Origin: Micromonospora sp. NBC_00389
Lineage (GTDB): Bacteria > Actinomycetota > Actinomycetes > Mycobacteriales > Micromonosporaceae
Length of the DNA: 64,000 bases
Reading direction: 5' to 3'
Assembly: GCF_036059255.1 (NCBI RefSeq)
Contig: NZ_CP107947.1
Span: 2,356,001-2,420,000 of the forward strand
The position numbers and the translations under genes were made by a program. A model generated the notes under the pieces. It had not been told where the DNA came from. It worked only from the letters and a program-made list of their open reading frames with translations, and did no database searches. Positions 14,428 through 20,676 of this stretch are shown here, piece after piece. Numbering within the stretch: position 1 is the stretch's first letter; each line of letters begins with the position of its first letter.

Positions 14428-15057
14428 TCAGTCGATGGGGATGTCGGCTGCGGCGGCGGCGCGGGCGTGCCGGGCGCTGACCAGGGTCATCGCCCAGCCG
14501 GCCGCGGCGAAGCCGGCCGCCGCGGCGGTGGCGATGATGGCCAGCCGCCACGCCGACTCGGTCAGCGCGGTGCCGCCCAGGTGCCCGACCAGTGCGCCGT
14601 AGGTGGCCCAGCCCAGTGCGGCGACCGCCTCGTAGAGCAGGAACAGCCGGTACGGGTAGCGGCTGCGGCCGGCCGAGAAGCAGGCCGCCATCCGACCGCC
14701 AGGCACGAACCGGCACAGCAGGATGACCACCGGCCCAGGCTGGCGCAGCCCTTGGGTGACCCGGCTGGCCATTCGGCGGGCACGGCTCGGCTCGGTGTGC
14801 CGGGGCGCCCGCCGGTCCGGTGCACTCCGACCGAGCAGGTAGCAGGCCAGGTCGCCAGCGAACACACCGAGCGCGCCGACGGCGATGGTGACCGGCAGGT
14901 TGAGCCCGCCGTAGACGGTGAGCGCGCCGCTGGTGATCATGATGATCTGGGTGGGGATCACCGGGACGAAGGCGTCCGCGATCAGCAGGCTAAGCAGCAC
15001 GAGGTACGCCCACGTCGGCGATGCGACGTCAGTCAGTAGTTCGGGCACGCCTGCCAC
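14428..15057 (-). CDS. DedA family membrane protein
   Basis: 209-residue SNARE-associated/DedA protein. The family acts at the cytoplasmic membrane and members are implicated in flipping or recycling lipid carriers and in membrane homeostasis. Features are the N-terminal re-entrant region (FVPVIPTQIIMITSGAL), the cytoplasmic RFVPGGRMAACFSAG motif with its conserved Arg and Pro-Gly, and C-terminal helices. GTG starts exist at 15057 and 15048; the longer one is used. The specific lipid is not predictable. Confidence 0.87.
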   Translation of the reverse strand: MAGVPELLTDVASPTWAYLVLLSLLIADAFVPVIPTQIIMITSGALTVYGGLNLPVTIAVGALGVFAGDLACYLLGRSAPDRRAPRHTEPSRARRMASRVTQGLRQPGPVVILLCRFVPGGRMAACFSAGRSRYPYRLFLLYEAVAALGWATYGALVGHLGGTALTESAWRLAIIATAAAAGFAAAGWAMTLVSARHARAAAAADIPID

Positions 15058-15406
15058 CTCGCCGGATGCGGCCGATTGAGTGTCCTGAGCCTGACGGCGT
15101 GTCCGGCGTCACCGTGGACAGCCCCGTCCCGTCGTGACCGTCGACACTGCCGGGCCACCCCTGTACAACGAGGCGAACGGTCCTCGGGTGACGGCTCGAC
15201 GACCGTCCCACCGGGCCCGCGTGGGGTCGGCGGATCGGCGTCCGTCGGCGTACCGTTGTGCGCGCGGCCCCGTCCGTCGGGTCCCCCGTTCCTGACGATT
15301 CGGGCCGCCCAGGGCCGCCGGCGGGTCCCGCGCCGGCGGCCCGCCCCTTCCTCCGGCACCACAAATCCGGGTGCGTCCGCGTCCGCCCGGCGGGTACCGT
15401 CGCCGC
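15058..15406. other. Gene-free divergent region, DedA gene / Thr leader
   Basis: About 350 bp of very GC-rich DNA with no credible gene. The only element I can support is TACCGT (15395-15400), placed 6 bases before the leader-peptide ATG and thus a candidate -10 box for a leaderless leader transcript. No clear -35 was found at the right spacing, and no promoter for the DedA gene stands out. Confidence 0.4.
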
Positions 15407-15463
15407 ATGCGCAGCGCGGTAGTGGTGACCACGACGCCGGGTGTCCCCGGCGTGCCGCTCTGA
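15407..15463 (+). CDS. Threonine-rich leader peptide (18 aa) for the short ThrRS
   Basis: Reading from the ATG gives MRSAVVVTTTPGVPGVPL and then TGA. Codons 8-10 are three consecutive threonine codons (ACC ACG ACG, 15428-15436). The peptide ends 103 bp before the ATG of a threonyl-tRNA synthetase, the arrangement seen for amino-acid leader peptides in ribosome-mediated attenuation. A TACCGT box 6 bases upstream suggests that translation begins at the first base of the mRNA. The coding sense is deduced from position and composition alone; the peptide itself is unlikely to have another function. Confidence 0.72.
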   Translation: MRSAVVVTTTPGVPGVPL

Positions 15464-15510
15464 CGTAACCACCGTCGACCAGGCCCCGGGGCGATCCGCC
15501 CCCGAGGGCC
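15434..15510 (+). promoter_or_regulatory. Candidate transcription attenuator controlling the short ThrRS
   Basis: Two hairpins and an alternative pairing can be drawn. Hairpin 1 is ACGCCGGG (15434-15441) with CCCGGCGT (15446-15453), perfect over 8 bp and beginning exactly at the third Thr codon. Hairpin 2 is GGCCC-C-GGGGCG (15482-15493) with CGCCCC-CGA-GGGCC (15497-15510), 11 paired bases and a 3-base loop. CCCCGG (15445-15450) can instead pair with CCGGGG (15486-15491), which would break hairpin 2. A ribosome stalled at uncharged-tRNA-starved Thr codons would block hairpin 1 and favour that alternative. Hairpin 2 has no U-tract, as is common for actinomycete terminators. Confidence 0.65.
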
Positions 15511-15566
15511 GCGCGGCGTTCGGAGTCCAGGTCGCCTCCGGGTCGTACCCGATCCAGGAGCGCGAC

Positions 15567-16784
15567 ATGATTGACCACCGCAGGCTCGGCCGGGAGCTGG
15601 ACCTGTTCGTCTCCGACCCGCTGGCCGGCGCAGGCCTGCCGATCTGGCTGCCGGCCGGCGCCGCCGCCCGGCACGCCGTCGAGGAGTACGTCCGGGAGTT
15701 GGAGCGCCGCTCCGGCCACCAGCACGTCTACTCGCCGCCGCTGGGCAAGCGGGAGCTCTTCGAACTCTCCGGGCACTTCGGCTACTTCGCCGACGACATG
15801 TTCCCGCCGATGCGGCTGAGCGCCGACGACGAGTTCGTGCTCCGGCCGGCACTCTGCCCACACCATGCGCTGGTCTTCCGGGCCCGGGGCCGCTCCTATC
15901 GGGAGCTGCCGCTGCGGATCGCGGAGCTGGGCGGGATGTACCGCTCGGAGCGCTCCGGGGTGCTCGGCGGGCTGTCCCGGGTACGTGCCATCTCGCTCAA
16001 CGACGCGCACACCTTCTGCGCTCCGGACCAGGTGGGCGAGGAGGTCGTGGAGATCCTGGGGCTGATCCGCGCCGCGCTCGCCGCGCTCGGCGTCCGCCCG
16101 GCCGGCTTCCGGCTGTCGCTGCGCGGGCCGGGCGAGAAGTACGTCGGCGACGACGCGCAGTGGGCCCGCGCCGAGGAGTTGCTCCGGGGTGCGCTGGCAG
16201 GGGTGGACTACGTCGAGGCGCCGGGGGAGGCCGCCTTCTACGGCCCGAAGATCGACATACAGATCGTGGACGCGGCCGGCCGGGAGTCGACCATCTCCAC
16301 CATCCAGCTGGACTTCGACAAGCCGGAGCGGTTCGACCTGTCGTACACCGATCGGGACGGCAGCCGGCGGCGGCCGGTGATGGTGCACCGCAGCCTGGTC
16401 GGCAGCATGGAGCGGCTGTTCGCGTACCTCATCGAGGTGCACGAGGGCGCCTTCCCGGCCTGGTACGCGCCGGTCCAGCTGATGCTGTTGCCGGTGGATG
16501 ACGGGCAGGTCGACGCGGTGACCGAGCTGGCCCGGCGGGCCGTCGACGCCGGGCTGCGGGTCGAGGTCGACGCCGCCGGCTCGCTGGGCGCCCGGATCCG
16601 GGACGCGGCCCGCCGCCGCGTCCCGTACCTCGGGGTGCTCGGCTCCCGCGAGGCGGCCGACGGGCACCTCGCGCTGCGCCTGCGCGGCGGCCGCGCCCTG
16701 GACCCGATGCCCGCCGCCGCCGCGCTCGCCCTGATCAGCCGACAGGTCGCCAGCCGCGCGGCCGACCTGCTGCCGCCGGACTGA
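15567..16784 (+). CDS. Short threonyl-tRNA synthetase (catalytic and anticodon domains only)
   Basis: Class II aminoacyl-tRNA synthetase of 405 residues. The catalytic core shows the zinc ligands Cys (RPALCPHH), His (NDAHTFC) and His (VMVHRSLVGS), motif 2 (GGMYRSERSGVLGG) and motif 3 (SMERLFAYLIE); an anticodon-binding domain follows (LMLLPVDDGQVDAV, then RRRVPYLGVLGSREA). Normal bacterial ThrRS has over 630 residues because of N-terminal TGS and editing domains, both missing here. It is probably a second, non-editing ThrRS expressed under threonine shortage, consistent with the upstream leader. AGGAG at 15556-15560 sets the ATG at 15567. A role in antibiotic self-resistance is possible, but nothing nearby shows it. 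Confidence 0.88.
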   Translation: MIDHRRLGRELDLFVSDPLAGAGLPIWLPAGAAARHAVEEYVRELERRSGHQHVYSPPLGKRELFELSGHFGYFADDMFPPMRLSADDEFVLRPALCPHHALVFRARGRSYRELPLRIAELGGMYRSERSGVLGGLSRVRAISLNDAHTFCAPDQVGEEVVEILGLIRAALAALGVRPAGFRLSLRGPGEKYVGDDAQWARAEELLRGALAGVDYVEAPGEAAFYGPKIDIQIVDAAGRESTISTIQLDFDKPERFDLSYTDRDGSRRRPVMVHRSLVGSMERLFAYLIEVHEGAFPAWYAPVQLMLLPVDDGQVDAVTELARRAVDAGLRVEVDAAGSLGARIRDAARRRVPYLGVLGSREAADGHLALRLRGGRALDPMPAAAALALISRQVASRAADLLPPD

Positions 16785-16800
16785 CCCACCCGCCGATCCG

Positions 16801-16844
16801 GGGCGGATCGTCGTCGACCGAACAGTGCGCACGGCGATCCGCCC
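16801..16844. terminator. Bidirectional terminator-like hairpin
   Basis: GGGCGGATCG (16801-16810) and CGATCCGCCC (16835-16844) form a perfect 10-bp inverted repeat with a 24-base loop between the convergent ThrRS and ABC transporter genes. The right arm touches the stop codon of the transporter gene. Confidence 0.55.
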
Positions 16845-18946
16845 TAGACCGACGCGGGCTGGGCGTTGGCGGGCGCGGCAGGGGCGGCGGAGTCGTCGTC
16901 CACGGCGGCGCCGGTGAACTGGGAGCGGTAGAGCCGGTGGTACGCGCCCTGAGCGACGAGCAACTGCTCGTGGGTGCCCTGCTCGACGATGCGACCGTTC
17001 TCCATCATGAGGATCAGGTCGGCGTCCCGGATGGTGGAGAGCCGGTGCGCGATGACGAAGCTGGTCCGATCCGAGCGCAGCGCCGCCATCGCCCGCTGGA
17101 GCAGCACCTCGGTGCGGGTGTCCACCGAGCTGGTCGCCTCGTCCAGGATCAGCAGGGACGGCTCGGCGAGGAACGCCCGGGCGATGGTGATGAGCTGCTT
17201 CTCGCCGGCGCTGACGTTGCTGCCCTCCTCGTCGATCACCGTGTCGTAGCCGTCCGGCAGGCTGTGCACGAACCGGTCGACGAAGGTGGCCCGGGCTGCG
17301 GCGAGGATCTCCTCCTCGGTCGCGTCCGGCCGGCCGTAGGCGATGTTGTCCCGGATGGTGCCGCCGAAGAGCCAGGTGTCCTGGAGCACCATGCCGATCC
17401 GACCGCGCAGGTCGTCGCGGCGCATGGTGGTGATGTCCACCCCGTCCAGGGTGATCCGCCCGGCCTCCAGCTCGTAGAACCGCATGACCAGGTTGACCAG
17501 GGTGGTCTTGCCGGCGCCGGTCGGGCCGACGATGGCAACCGTGTGCCCCGGCTCGGCGACCAGTGACAGGTCGTCGATCAGCGGCTTGTCCGGCTCGTAG
17601 CGGAACGAGACGTGCTCGAACTCGACCCGGCCGTGCGGGTCGAGAACCCGGGCCGGTTCGACCGGGTCGGGGCTCTGCTCCTCGGCGTCGAGGACTGCGA
17701 AGACCCGCTCGGCCGAGGCCACCCCGGACTGGAGCAGGTTGGCCATCGAGGCGAGCTGGGTGAGGGGTTGGGTGAACTGGCGGGAGTACTGGATGAACGC
17801 CTGCACGTCGCCAAGGCTCATCGTCCCGGACGCCACCCGCAGCCCGCCGACCACGGCGATCGCCACGTAGCTGAGGTTCCCGATGAACATCATCGACGGC
17901 ATGATGATCCCGGAGATGAACTGCGCGCCGAAGCTGGCCCGGAACAGCTCCTCGTTCTTCGCGGCGAACGCGGCCTCCACCTCGCGCTGCCGGCCGAAGA
18001 CCTTCACCAGCTCGTGACCGGTGTACGCCTCCTCGATCTGGCCGTTCAGCTCGCCGGTGTGCTTCCACTGCGCGATGAACTGCTGCTGCGAGCGCTTGGC
18101 GATGCGCTGGGTGACCAGCACCGACAACGGCACCGCGACCAGGGCCACGAGGGCCAGCAGCGGCGAGATCCAGAACATCACGCCCAGCACGCCGATCACG
18201 GTCAGCAGCGAGGTGAGCAGCTGGCTGAGGGTCTGCTGGAGACTGGTCGAGATGTTGTCGATGTCGTTGGTGACCCGGCTGAGCAGCTCACCGCGGGGCT
18301 GCCGGTCGAAGTAGGGCAGCGGCAGCCGGTTGAGCTTCTCCTCCACCTCCGCCCGCAGCCGCAGCACGGTGCGCTGGACCACCCCGTTGAGCAGCCAGCC
18401 CTGCCACCACGACAACACACTCGCGGCCAGGTAGAGCCCGAGCGCCAACAAAAGCACCCGGCTCAGGGCGCTGAAGTCGATGCCCGCCCCGGGCACGATG
18501 TCCATCCGGGCCAGCATGTCGGCGAAGCTCTCGTTGCCGCTGGCCCGGGCCGCCGCGACGGCCTGCTCGGTGGTCGTCCCCGCCTCCAACTGCCGGCCGA
18601 TCACCCCGTTGAAGATCAGGTCGGTGGCGTGGCCGAGGATCTTCGGCCCGGCGACACTGAAGCCGACGCTCACCACGGCCAGCGTGATGATCGCGGTCAG
18701 GTGCAGCCGGTGTGGGCGCAGCCGGCCGAGCAGCCGCCGGGCGGACGGCCCGAAGTTCATCGACTTCTCGGCGGGCATCCCGGCGCCCGCCCACGGCGGC
18801 CCGCCGCCCTGGCGGCCCGGAGGCAGCCGCTTCGGCGTCGCCGCGTCGCCGCCGGGCTGTTGCGCGTCGCCCTCCGGCGTCCGCGCGTCGCCGGCCGGCT
18901 TCTGCGTGGGTACGGCCGCGGTCCGCGACTCGTCGGGCTCGCTCAT
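16844..18946 (-). CDS. ABC exporter half-transporter B (fused membrane and ATPase domains)
   Basis: 700-residue half-transporter. A long, hydrophilic, Pro/Gly-rich N-terminal tail (about 70 residues) precedes six membrane helices, then the ATPase domain with Walker [10 protein letters not shown], Walker [11 protein letters not shown] with the catalytic Glu, and the H-loop AHRLS. Its signature is degenerate (NVSAGEKQ instead of LSGGQ). The partner encoded upstream has the opposite arrangement, so the pair should form a heterodimer with one active and one degenerate ATP site, as in many multidrug exporters. It overlaps the partner by 4 bp (ATGA) and is expected to be translationally coupled. 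The substrate is unknown. Confidence 0.9.
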
Positions 18947-20676
18947 GCCGGCACCTCCGCCGTCTGCTGGGAGGCCACGATCTCGGCGTACGTCGGGCAG
19001 CTCTCCAGCAACTCCTCGTGTCGTCCCACTCCGACGACCCCTCCGTCCTCAAGCACGATGATCTGGTCGGCGTCGACGATCGTGGAGACCCGCTGGGCCA
19101 CGATCACCACTGCGGCCTGCGCGGTGACCGGGCGCAGCGCCGCCCGCAGCCGCGCGTCGGTGCCGAGGTCGAGCGCCGAGAACGAGTCGTCGAACAGGTA
19201 GATCTCCGGCTGCCGGACCAACGCCCGGGCGATGGCCAGACGTTGCCGCTGCCCACCGGAGACCGTGCTGCCGCCCTGGGCGATCGGGGCGTCCAGCCCG
19301 CCGGGCATCTCGGCCACGAAGTCCCGGGCCTGGGCGATCTCCAGCGCCGCCCACAGCTCGTCGTCGGTGGCGTCCGGGTTGCCGTAGCGCAGGTTGCTGG
19401 CGACCGTGCCGGTGAACAGGTACGGCCGCTGCGGCACCAGGCCGATGCGCCGCCACAGCTCGTCGGGTGCCAGCTCCCGTACGTCCACACCGTCGACCAG
19501 CACCGCCCCGGCGGTGACGTCGACCAGGCGGGGAACGAGCGACAGCAGGGTGGTCTTGCCGGCACCGGTGCTGCCGATGATCGCCGTGGTGGTGCCCGGG
19601 GTGGCCCGGAAGGAGATGTCCCGCAACACCGGCTCGACCGCGCCCGGGTACTGGAAACGCACCCCGCGCAGCTCCAGTTCGGCCCGGGTGGGCAGCTCGG
19701 TGACCGGGTCGGCGGCGGGGACCACCGACGAGTCGGTGTCCAGCACCTCGATGATCCGCTCGGAGCAGACCGCGGCCCGGGGCACCATCATCAGCATGAA
19801 GGTGGCCATCATCACGGCCATCAGGATCTGCATCAGGTACTGAAGGAAGGCGGTGAGCGCGCCGACCTGGATCGCACCGGCGTCAACCCGCTGCGCGCCG
19901 AACCAGAGCACCGCCACGCTGGAGACGTTCAGCACCAGCATGACCACCGGGAAGATCAGGGCCAGCAGTCGGCCGGTACGCAGCGCGGTGGCGGTCAGGT
20001 CGGCGTTGGCGACGCCGAAGCGATCCGTCTCGTACGGCTCGCGGACGAAGGCGCGGACCACCCGAATGCCGGTGATCTGCTCGCGCAGCACGCGGTTGAC
20101 CGTGTCGATCCGGGTCTGCATCAGCCGGAACCCCGGGACCATCCGGCGGATGATCGCGCTGAGCGCGACGGCCAGCACCGGCACGCTGACCAGCATCAGC
20201 CAGGAGAGCCCGAGATCCTCCCGCAGCGCCATGAACACGCCGCCGACGCTCATGATCGGTGCGGCGACGAGCATGGTGCAGCTCATCAGCACGAGCATCT
20301 GCACCTGCTGCACGTCGTTCGTGTTGCGGGTGATCAGCGACGGCGCGCCGAACCGGGCCACCTCGCGGGCGGAGAAGCGGTTGACGTGCCCGAACAGCGA
20401 CGCGCGGACGTCCCGACCGAAGCCCATCGCGATCCGCGCGCCCAGGTAGACCGCCGCGATCGAGCAGATGATCTGGATCAGGCTGACCAGCAGCATCCAG
20501 CCGCCGGTGCGCACGATGTAGTCGGTGTCGCCGCGGGCCACGCCCTGGTCGATGATGTCGGCGTTGAGGCTGGGCAGGTAGAGCGAGGCCATGGTGCCCA
20601 CGAACTGGAGCAGCACGACCGCCGTCAACGGTTGGTGGTAGGGACGCAGATGATTGCGCAACAGTCGGATCAGCAC
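18943..20676 (-). CDS. ABC exporter half-transporter A (fused membrane and ATPase domains)
   Basis: 577-residue half-transporter with six membrane helices followed by an ATPase domain: Walker [10 protein letters not shown], canonical signature VSGGQRQRL, and Walker [11 protein letters not shown] in which Asp replaces the catalytic Glu. This loss, together with the degenerate signature of the partner, predicts an asymmetric heterodimer. The gene overlaps the MarR gene by 7 bp upstream and the partner by 4 bp downstream, making a three-gene operon under the MarR promoter. Drug or lipid export is likely from the context; the substrate cannot be read. Confidence 0.9.

Follow-up and report, generated by a model that had tools for sequence, protein, structure and literature searches.

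A conserved threonine leader with attenuator-like hairpins and a WblC-type promoter motif upstream of an editing-less threonyl-tRNA synthetase gene in Micromonospora

The stretch of Micromonospora sp. NBC_00389 DNA that was analyzed, 64,000 nucleotides in length and referred to here as the window, carries on its + strand a gene for a short threonyl-tRNA synthetase (ThrRS) of 405 residues (15567..16784). Its ATG at 15567 lies one base past the end of the feature (15566) singled out in a previous sequence-only reading of this DNA. The enzyme had been described there as a ThrRS paralogue without editing domains, and the domain analysis agreed. Pfam returned tRNA-synt_2b and HGTP_anticodon and nothing else, a catalytic core and an anticodon domain with no N-terminal editing region, and the match to the NCBIfam thrS model TIGR00418 (419.8 bits, cut-off 383.65) covered profile positions 172-561 of 565. 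Aligned with a ThrRS chain of solved structure, the enzyme retains the Cys, His and His positions, which we take to be the zinc-binding residues of ThrRS. The genome encodes a second, full-length ThrRS of 669 residues that is 42% identical over the shared part; no such Thr leader was found upstream of it. The short ThrRS gene is flanked upstream by a gene for a VTT-domain protein (14428-15057) and on the other side by two adjacent ABC transporter genes (16844-20676), these three neighbors being on the - strand.

Directly upstream of the short ThrRS gene is a leader open reading frame encoding MRSAVVVTTTPGVPGVPL, 18 codons and a stop, at 15407..15463 of the + strand (ATG 15407-15409, stop 15461-15463). 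It contains three consecutive Thr codons, ACC ACG ACG, at 15428-15436; sequence and translation both agree with the earlier description of this leader. The TACCGT box, a -10 element of the form TAnnnT at 15395..15400 (+), is only 6 nt upstream of the leader ATG, and the transcript is therefore predicted to be leaderless. Other short ORFs bearing Thr-Thr-Thr are present at several places in the window, so the run by itself is weak evidence. These ORFs, and the ease with which GC-rich DNA folds, speak for the possibility that there is no regulation at this locus, only a conserved, GC-rich leader in which hairpins form by chance. Within the window, a TAnnnT box was found 5-8 nt before the ATG or GTG of five ORFs of 8-35 codons, and Thr-Thr-Thr occurs in this one only. 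The folding energy of 15407-15567 was lower than that of 200/200 dinucleotide shuffles (z -3.46). The leader arrangement is not due to chance, and conservation is the decisive test.

Within the genus, 132 of 160 genomes carried the short ThrRS, and within the family 258 of 354 did so, representing 29 of 44 genera (E up to 1e-130 in both searches). Most of the named orthologues were from Micromonospora, with identities of up to 95%. The 220 orthologous loci were reduced to 163 distinct upstream regions and examined for conserved Thr codons, a comparison that the sequence-only reading had proposed. The Thr-run leader was retained in all 163, with three Thr in 154 and two in nine. Of these regions, 161 have a leader that starts with ATG and contains Thr-Thr, and the remaining two have GTG leaders with Thr-Thr-Thr. 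The TAnnnT box lies 6-16 nt upstream of the leader start in 159 of the 161 ATG leaders, and both GTG leaders have it too. Asn precedes the Thr pair in seven of the nine two-Thr leaders; the Asn variant NTTPGNPG was seen in the Salinispora loci L204, L206, L208, L209 and L210 and in L106 and L110.

The comparison was extended to a sample of the phylum, where a ThrRS match (E up to 1e-112) was obtained in 13 of 396 genomes, the source genome among them. A leaderless Thr-run leader was found for 11 of the 12 distant matches from other actinobacterial families; the remaining one (L233) clusters in the tree with the full-length enzyme. All 48 leader-bearing enzymes of that tree fall into one clade with support 99/95, as measured against only two outgroup rows, both long-branched. 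The Streptomyces-like distant leaders retain Thr-Thr-Thr-Pro, and the context around the run has drifted in the more distant ones (MAGLRSTTTTTGLPPAVCRVR, VIKRLSPQTTTGSHPSAVRR, MHHHARTTTATEHAPEAGSSR and MFSALATTTPEISGAR). The residue that follows the run in the 11 distant leaders is Pro in seven and Gly or Ala in four, and the remaining peptide is variable, which favors the Thr codons over a stalling peptide motif. The leaders of L229, L230, L231, L232, L234 and L235, all from distant families, have three to five Thr in varying contexts.

Genomes without the enzyme were also searched for the leader. A core motif pattern that recovered 9 of 10 positive genomes was absent in 19 of the 20 searched congeners without a ThrRS match (28 such congeners at E up to 1e-130). 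The sole exception, G038:C61 (L252), has an intact-looking leader, but its ThrRS is a fragment split over two frames and truncated where the contig ends; this may be a pseudogene or an assembly error. The leader and the short ThrRS gene thus co-occur in the genomes tested. In the source genome, a looser core pattern gave five matches, and the other four lack an in-frame start codon behind a TAnnnT box. A scan upstream of the two TrpRS genes of the source genome found no Trp leaders. Both the retention of the Thr run in distant families and the absence of the core motif from 19 of 20 congeners that lack the ThrRS match count against a locus without regulation.

Three hairpins were recognized on the + strand between the leader start and the ThrRS start codon. 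P1 (15408..15467), identified by folding and by the arm-swap test described below, is a long hairpin that encloses the leader ORF and its stop and pairs the first leader codons with the leader end and stop. Hairpin 1 of the previous reading (15434-15453) is present in the sequence and in the fold at the position given for it; however, it is not the whole stem, merely the tip of P1. P2 (15482..15510), the former hairpin 2, was defined by covariation. P3 (15531..15566), found by folding and arm-swap, pairs the ThrRS Shine-Dalgarno sequence AGGAG (15556-15560). The two halves of the proposed antiterminator also lie where they had been placed: CCCCGG, on the 3' side of hairpin 1, at 15445..15450 and CCGGGG, in the 5' arm of P2, at 15486..15491.

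P2 had been called terminator-like. The hairpin covaries, but its standing as a standard terminator was not confirmed: no T run follows it, and no terminator-like sites were detected in 15050-15700. At least four T within the 9 nt 3' of P2 were found in only 17 of 55 species. No Rfam family reached its gathering score in the window; between 15350 and 15620, at E up to 5, there was a sub-threshold SNORD48 match only. A T-box riboswitch was considered and rejected, since no T-box or specifier loop match was obtained with the Rfam model. RNAalifold applied to a MAFFT alignment of the whole leader gave short helices only, because the P1 arms cannot be aligned column by column.

The hairpins were evaluated individually. 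In an alignment of 44 sequences, from which L123 was omitted because its hairpin was mis-located, 88.7% of the P2 cells were paired. Double-sided changes numbered 67, compared with 27.8 +- 4.7 when shuffled (0/500 shuffles) and at most 16 with a slid partner. In the arm-swap test, the duplex energy of each species' own arms was compared with that of arms swapped between species over 10000 permutations, both in a set of 55 species, which omits L234 because no start was found, and in a set of 25 with one sequence per genus. The native and swapped energies (kcal/mol) in the set of 55, with counts for the sets of 55 and 25, were -18.5 and -15.7 for P1 (0/10000 and 2/10000), -30.2 and -24.0 for P2 (0/10000 and 0/10000), -12.1 and -10.5 for P3 (0/10000 and 0/10000), and -18.9 and -18.1 for the antiterminator (23/10000 and 206/10000), all of these counts falling short of strict probabilities, given the high G+C content and partial self-complementarity of the arms and the shared ancestry of the species. 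A hand-picked set of 32, with several sequences from one genus, gave counts of 0, 0, 0 and 43 for P1, P2, P3 and the antiterminator. Nine ThrRS starts had been reassigned by their Shine-Dalgarno sequences in the sets of 55, 32 and 25. The original starts were kept in a series of 5000-permutation tests, which omit L169 and L141 (no core match by pattern; L141 belongs to the diverse set). Without the tip of hairpin 1, the arm-swap result for the antiterminator was not significant (520/5000).

The compensatory changes that the sequence-only reading had asked for are thus found in P2, and the arms of P1, P2 and, more weakly, the antiterminator are matched by species. Among the four, the antiterminator is the least well supported pairing. 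Synonymous redraw of the flanking codons raised the folding energy of the leader in 35 of 45 species, with the native value within the best 5% in nine. With compensatory changes in P2 and species-matched arms added to the phylogenetic evidence, an unregulated leader with fortuitous hairpins is scarcely credible.

The earlier proposal that pairing of CCCCGG with CCGGGG breaks P2 was examined by folding with a ribosome placed on the leader. When P2 was complete, the equilibrium folds gave P2 formation of 0.82 for a ribosome placed at Thr codon 1 and 0.87 for one at the stop. Of the 45 species, only two showed a change in P2 at equilibrium exceeding 0.3 with ribosome position. The window is one of the two, so the proposal held for this locus; however, equilibrium switching of P2 as a general rule is ruled out over the 45 species. 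The mean energy of the antiterminator was -18.8, compared with -30.0 for P2. The nascent RNA behaved differently. When the RNA ended in the P2 loop, a ribosome stalled on the first Thr codon gave a pairing of 0.75 between the P2 5' arm and the leader; the value was 0.23 when no ribosome was present and 0.11 when the ribosome stood at the stop. In the stalled state, 44 of the 45 species showed a pairing probability of more than 0.4 between the 3' part of the leader and the P2 5' arm. Thus, P2 prevails over the antiterminator at equilibrium in most species, yet the nascent RNA forms the alternative pairing, and in these models the logic of the switch is most likely kinetic.

The specificity of this pairing was assessed by shuffling the 3' part of the leader. 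The pairing of 0.75 compared with 0.56 for the shuffled sequences and was better in 44 of 45 species; the energy was better in 42 of 45. The native antiterminator ranked within the best 5% of the shuffles in 14 of the 45 species by pairing and in 16 by energy. In the window, the pairing probability was 0.90 compared with 0.67 for shuffled leaders (6/60 as good), and the energy was no better than that of the shuffles (31/60 as good).

The possibility was considered that control is exerted at translation initiation, with P3 hiding the ThrRS Shine-Dalgarno sequence, translation of the leader deciding whether it opens, and P2 serving as a spacer or stabilizer and not as a terminator. The co-evolution of the P3 arms would suit this explanation, as would the absence of a U-tract from P2 in most species. 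Moreover, the accessibility of the Shine-Dalgarno sequence was 0.30 compared with 0.39 with shuffled spacers and was lower in 35 of 45 species. The difference is modest, however, with native accessibility in the lowest tenth in 11 of 45, and the mean accessibility remained at 0.30 to 0.32 whatever the ribosome position in the folds of the 45 species. Opening of P3 by a freed P2 3' arm was not supported. Pairing of the P2 3' arm with P3 was not matched by species (4959/5000), and removal of the P2 5' arm raised the accessibility by more than 0.2 in 0 of 45 species. Translational control in this form is accordingly rather unlikely, and ribosome-mediated attenuation is preferred.

The classical logic of ribosome-mediated attenuation, which the sequence-only reading had applied to this locus, is well supported by the conserved Thr run and the compensatory pairings. 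The leader, its Thr codons, P1, P2, the Shine-Dalgarno hairpin P3 and, more weakly, the antiterminator are supported by sequence comparison. It is very probable that the element is a ribosome-mediated attenuator that senses the charging of tRNA-Thr and controls the auxiliary, editing-less ThrRS. P2 may end transcription and the element would be expected to respond to threonine starvation.

The promoter upstream of the leader has further elements on the + strand. A putative -35 element, GTGCGT (15371..15376), lies 18 bp before the -10 box, and this spacer was found in 123 of 160 promoters; the -10 box itself is conserved in the orthologues. Three bp before the -35 element is an AT motif, CAAATC (15362..15367), which agrees with the WblC/WhiB7 consensus GAAAWY at 5/6 positions. 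Five or six of the six positions were matched in 134 of 160 leader promoters and in 29 of 42 of the diverse set, compared with 1.4% of mononucleotide-shuffled sequences; L132, L143 and L092, with no box at the assigned start, were omitted from this scoring. Among the proteins encoded by the source genome is one of the WhiB family that carries the stretch RPRGRPRK, resembling the AT-hook that marks WblC. According to the available text of a study of S. coelicolor (PMC7157823), WblC-activated promoters consist of GAAAWY, 3 bp, the -35 element, 16-19 bp and TANNNT, and thrS2 and trpS are on the list of WblC-activated genes. The accessible part of another report (PMC10771440) assigns a sigmaE site to SCO3778, named there as a threonyl-tRNA synthetase and likely to be thrS2. 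By its sequence, the leader promoter matches the WblC/WhiB7 antibiotic-stress motif, and WblC may activate the ThrRS gene.

The uORFs of WhiB7/WblC or ARE-ABCF genes sense the slowing of ribosomes by antibiotics. A leader behind a WblC-type promoter might likewise be a general sensor of such a slow-down, with the Thr run incidental, and the activation of thrS2 by WblC in S. coelicolor, as given in the text available (PMC7157823), would be in keeping with this. However, Thr is the sole residue retained in all of the leaders found, including those of distant families, and it fits the specificity of the gene, while a general sensor needs no Thr. The antibiotic input could, moreover, already come from the promoter. 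A general slow-down sensor is considered improbable, and a sensor of tRNA-Thr charging remains the favored interpretation.

The following mechanism is proposed for the attenuator. From the WblC-type promoter, transcription would begin at the leader ATG and give a leaderless mRNA. With ample Thr-tRNA, the ribosome would clear the three Thr codons, reach the stop and cover the 3' part of the leader. P2 would then form, and transcription would stop early or the message would remain silent. When Thr-tRNA is scarce, the ribosome would stall on the Thr codons and occupy the P1 5' arm. The freed 3' part of the leader, CCCCGG and its neighbors, could then capture the P2 5' arm as it emerges from RNA polymerase, so that formation of P2 is delayed and read-through into the ThrRS gene follows. 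The spare ThrRS would probably be made when charged threonine tRNA runs low, and the best reading of the sequence evidence is that it is licensed by antibiotic stress and gated by the charging of tRNA-Thr.

A more elaborate proposal, offered tentatively and with somewhat less than even confidence, is that many actinobacteria use a three-layer gate consisting of a WblC/WhiB7 promoter licence under antibiotic stress, a kinetic antiterminator in a leaderless Thr leader that gauges tRNA-Thr charging, and a co-evolving Shine-Dalgarno hairpin that sets translation, to control an editing-less backup ThrRS. If so, the enzyme would serve under stress, giving up proofreading in exchange for survival, and the cell would make it only upon failure of the housekeeping ThrRS, as may occur under a ThrRS inhibitor. 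In soil actinomycetes, the comparison suggests, a non-editing ThrRS paralogue is coupled to the charging of tRNA-Thr and probably also to the antibiotic-stress response governed by WblC. Two questions can now be tested: whether the backup synthetases confer protection from ThrRS inhibitors, borrelidin among them, and by what route attenuation proceeds in GC-rich bacteria when the leader is leaderless and its hairpin lacks a U-tract.

Several known systems share elements of this arrangement. E. coli thrS is repressed by ThrRS bound to its own mRNA and not by a leader peptide, while the biosynthetic thrABC operon has Thr codons in its leader. The locus resembles thrABC in the Thr codons of its leader and thrS in the proposed control of ThrRS expression. 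The auxiliary TrpRS1 of S. coelicolor, which is regulated by attenuation, is likewise a second synthetase copy, for another amino acid. In the available portion of PMC9437257, TrpRS1 is listed for indolmycin resistance; inhibitor resistance is a point of difference, being on record for TrpRS1 and not for the short ThrRS. The Streptomyces trpS and leuS attenuators (Seliverstov 2005, PMC1262725), as far as the accessible text describes them, are likewise classical leader-peptide attenuators of actinobacterial aminoacyl-tRNA synthetase genes, with Trp or Leu codons instead; that text also reports finding no conserved RNA structure ahead of threonine operons. Anabaena ThrRS T2 is a second, editing-impaired ThrRS that is stress-induced and under Zur/zinc control (PMC4787780). 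T2 keeps an impaired editing domain and no leader peptide is mentioned in the part of that report available, whereas the ThrRS described here has no editing region and has a leader. An antibiotic with Thr-codon effects (PMC13372681) was considered as a parallel and rejected, as its stall sites, according to the available text, show a depletion of Thr codons.

The closest known system is thrL-thrS of S. lividans TK24. The sequence-only reading knew of no described ThrRS attenuator; however, this one was already in print (PMC8079986). The available text of that report describes, from RNA-seq, a leaderless Thr leader, MKRVRPFLETTPGFVPAR, and one hairpin, and calls termination unclear; actinobacterial leaders without a U-tract are also on record there. 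The S. lividans metL leader contains TTTPG, resembling the ThrRS leaders (Table 4 of the same report), and the attenuated alaS, trpS and thrS of S. lividans resemble the WblC-activated alaS2, trpS and thrS2 of S. coelicolor, although these were matched by name only. Among the literature sources, in the parts accessible, no further Thr leader on an actinobacterial ThrRS gene was found, nor any prior account of the Micromonosporaceae element, its covariation or its Shine-Dalgarno hairpin; a comparative paper of 2010 (doi 10.1134/S0026893310010164) may hold more cases.

The S. lividans locus and the one described here have in common a leaderless Thr leader, a threonine-tRNA ligase gene and a hairpin without a U-rich tract. 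The thrL peptide also shares the frame MKR...TTP...VPAR with several of the Streptomyces leaders found here, and from this likeness SLIV_19410 appears to be orthologous to the short ThrRS. The S. lividans report, in its available text, covers one genome, a leader with two Thr, and no alternative pairing or comparison. The present analysis, in contrast, covers many genera in several families and adds covarying P1 and P2, an antiterminator, a Shine-Dalgarno hairpin and a promoter motif. Thus, as far as the accessible sources go, a ThrRS attenuator has been described once before, in a single genome, while the conservation, the structure and the link to a WblC-type promoter are new here, and what had been a remark on one genome now extends to a regulatory family that is conserved and whose anatomy is defined.
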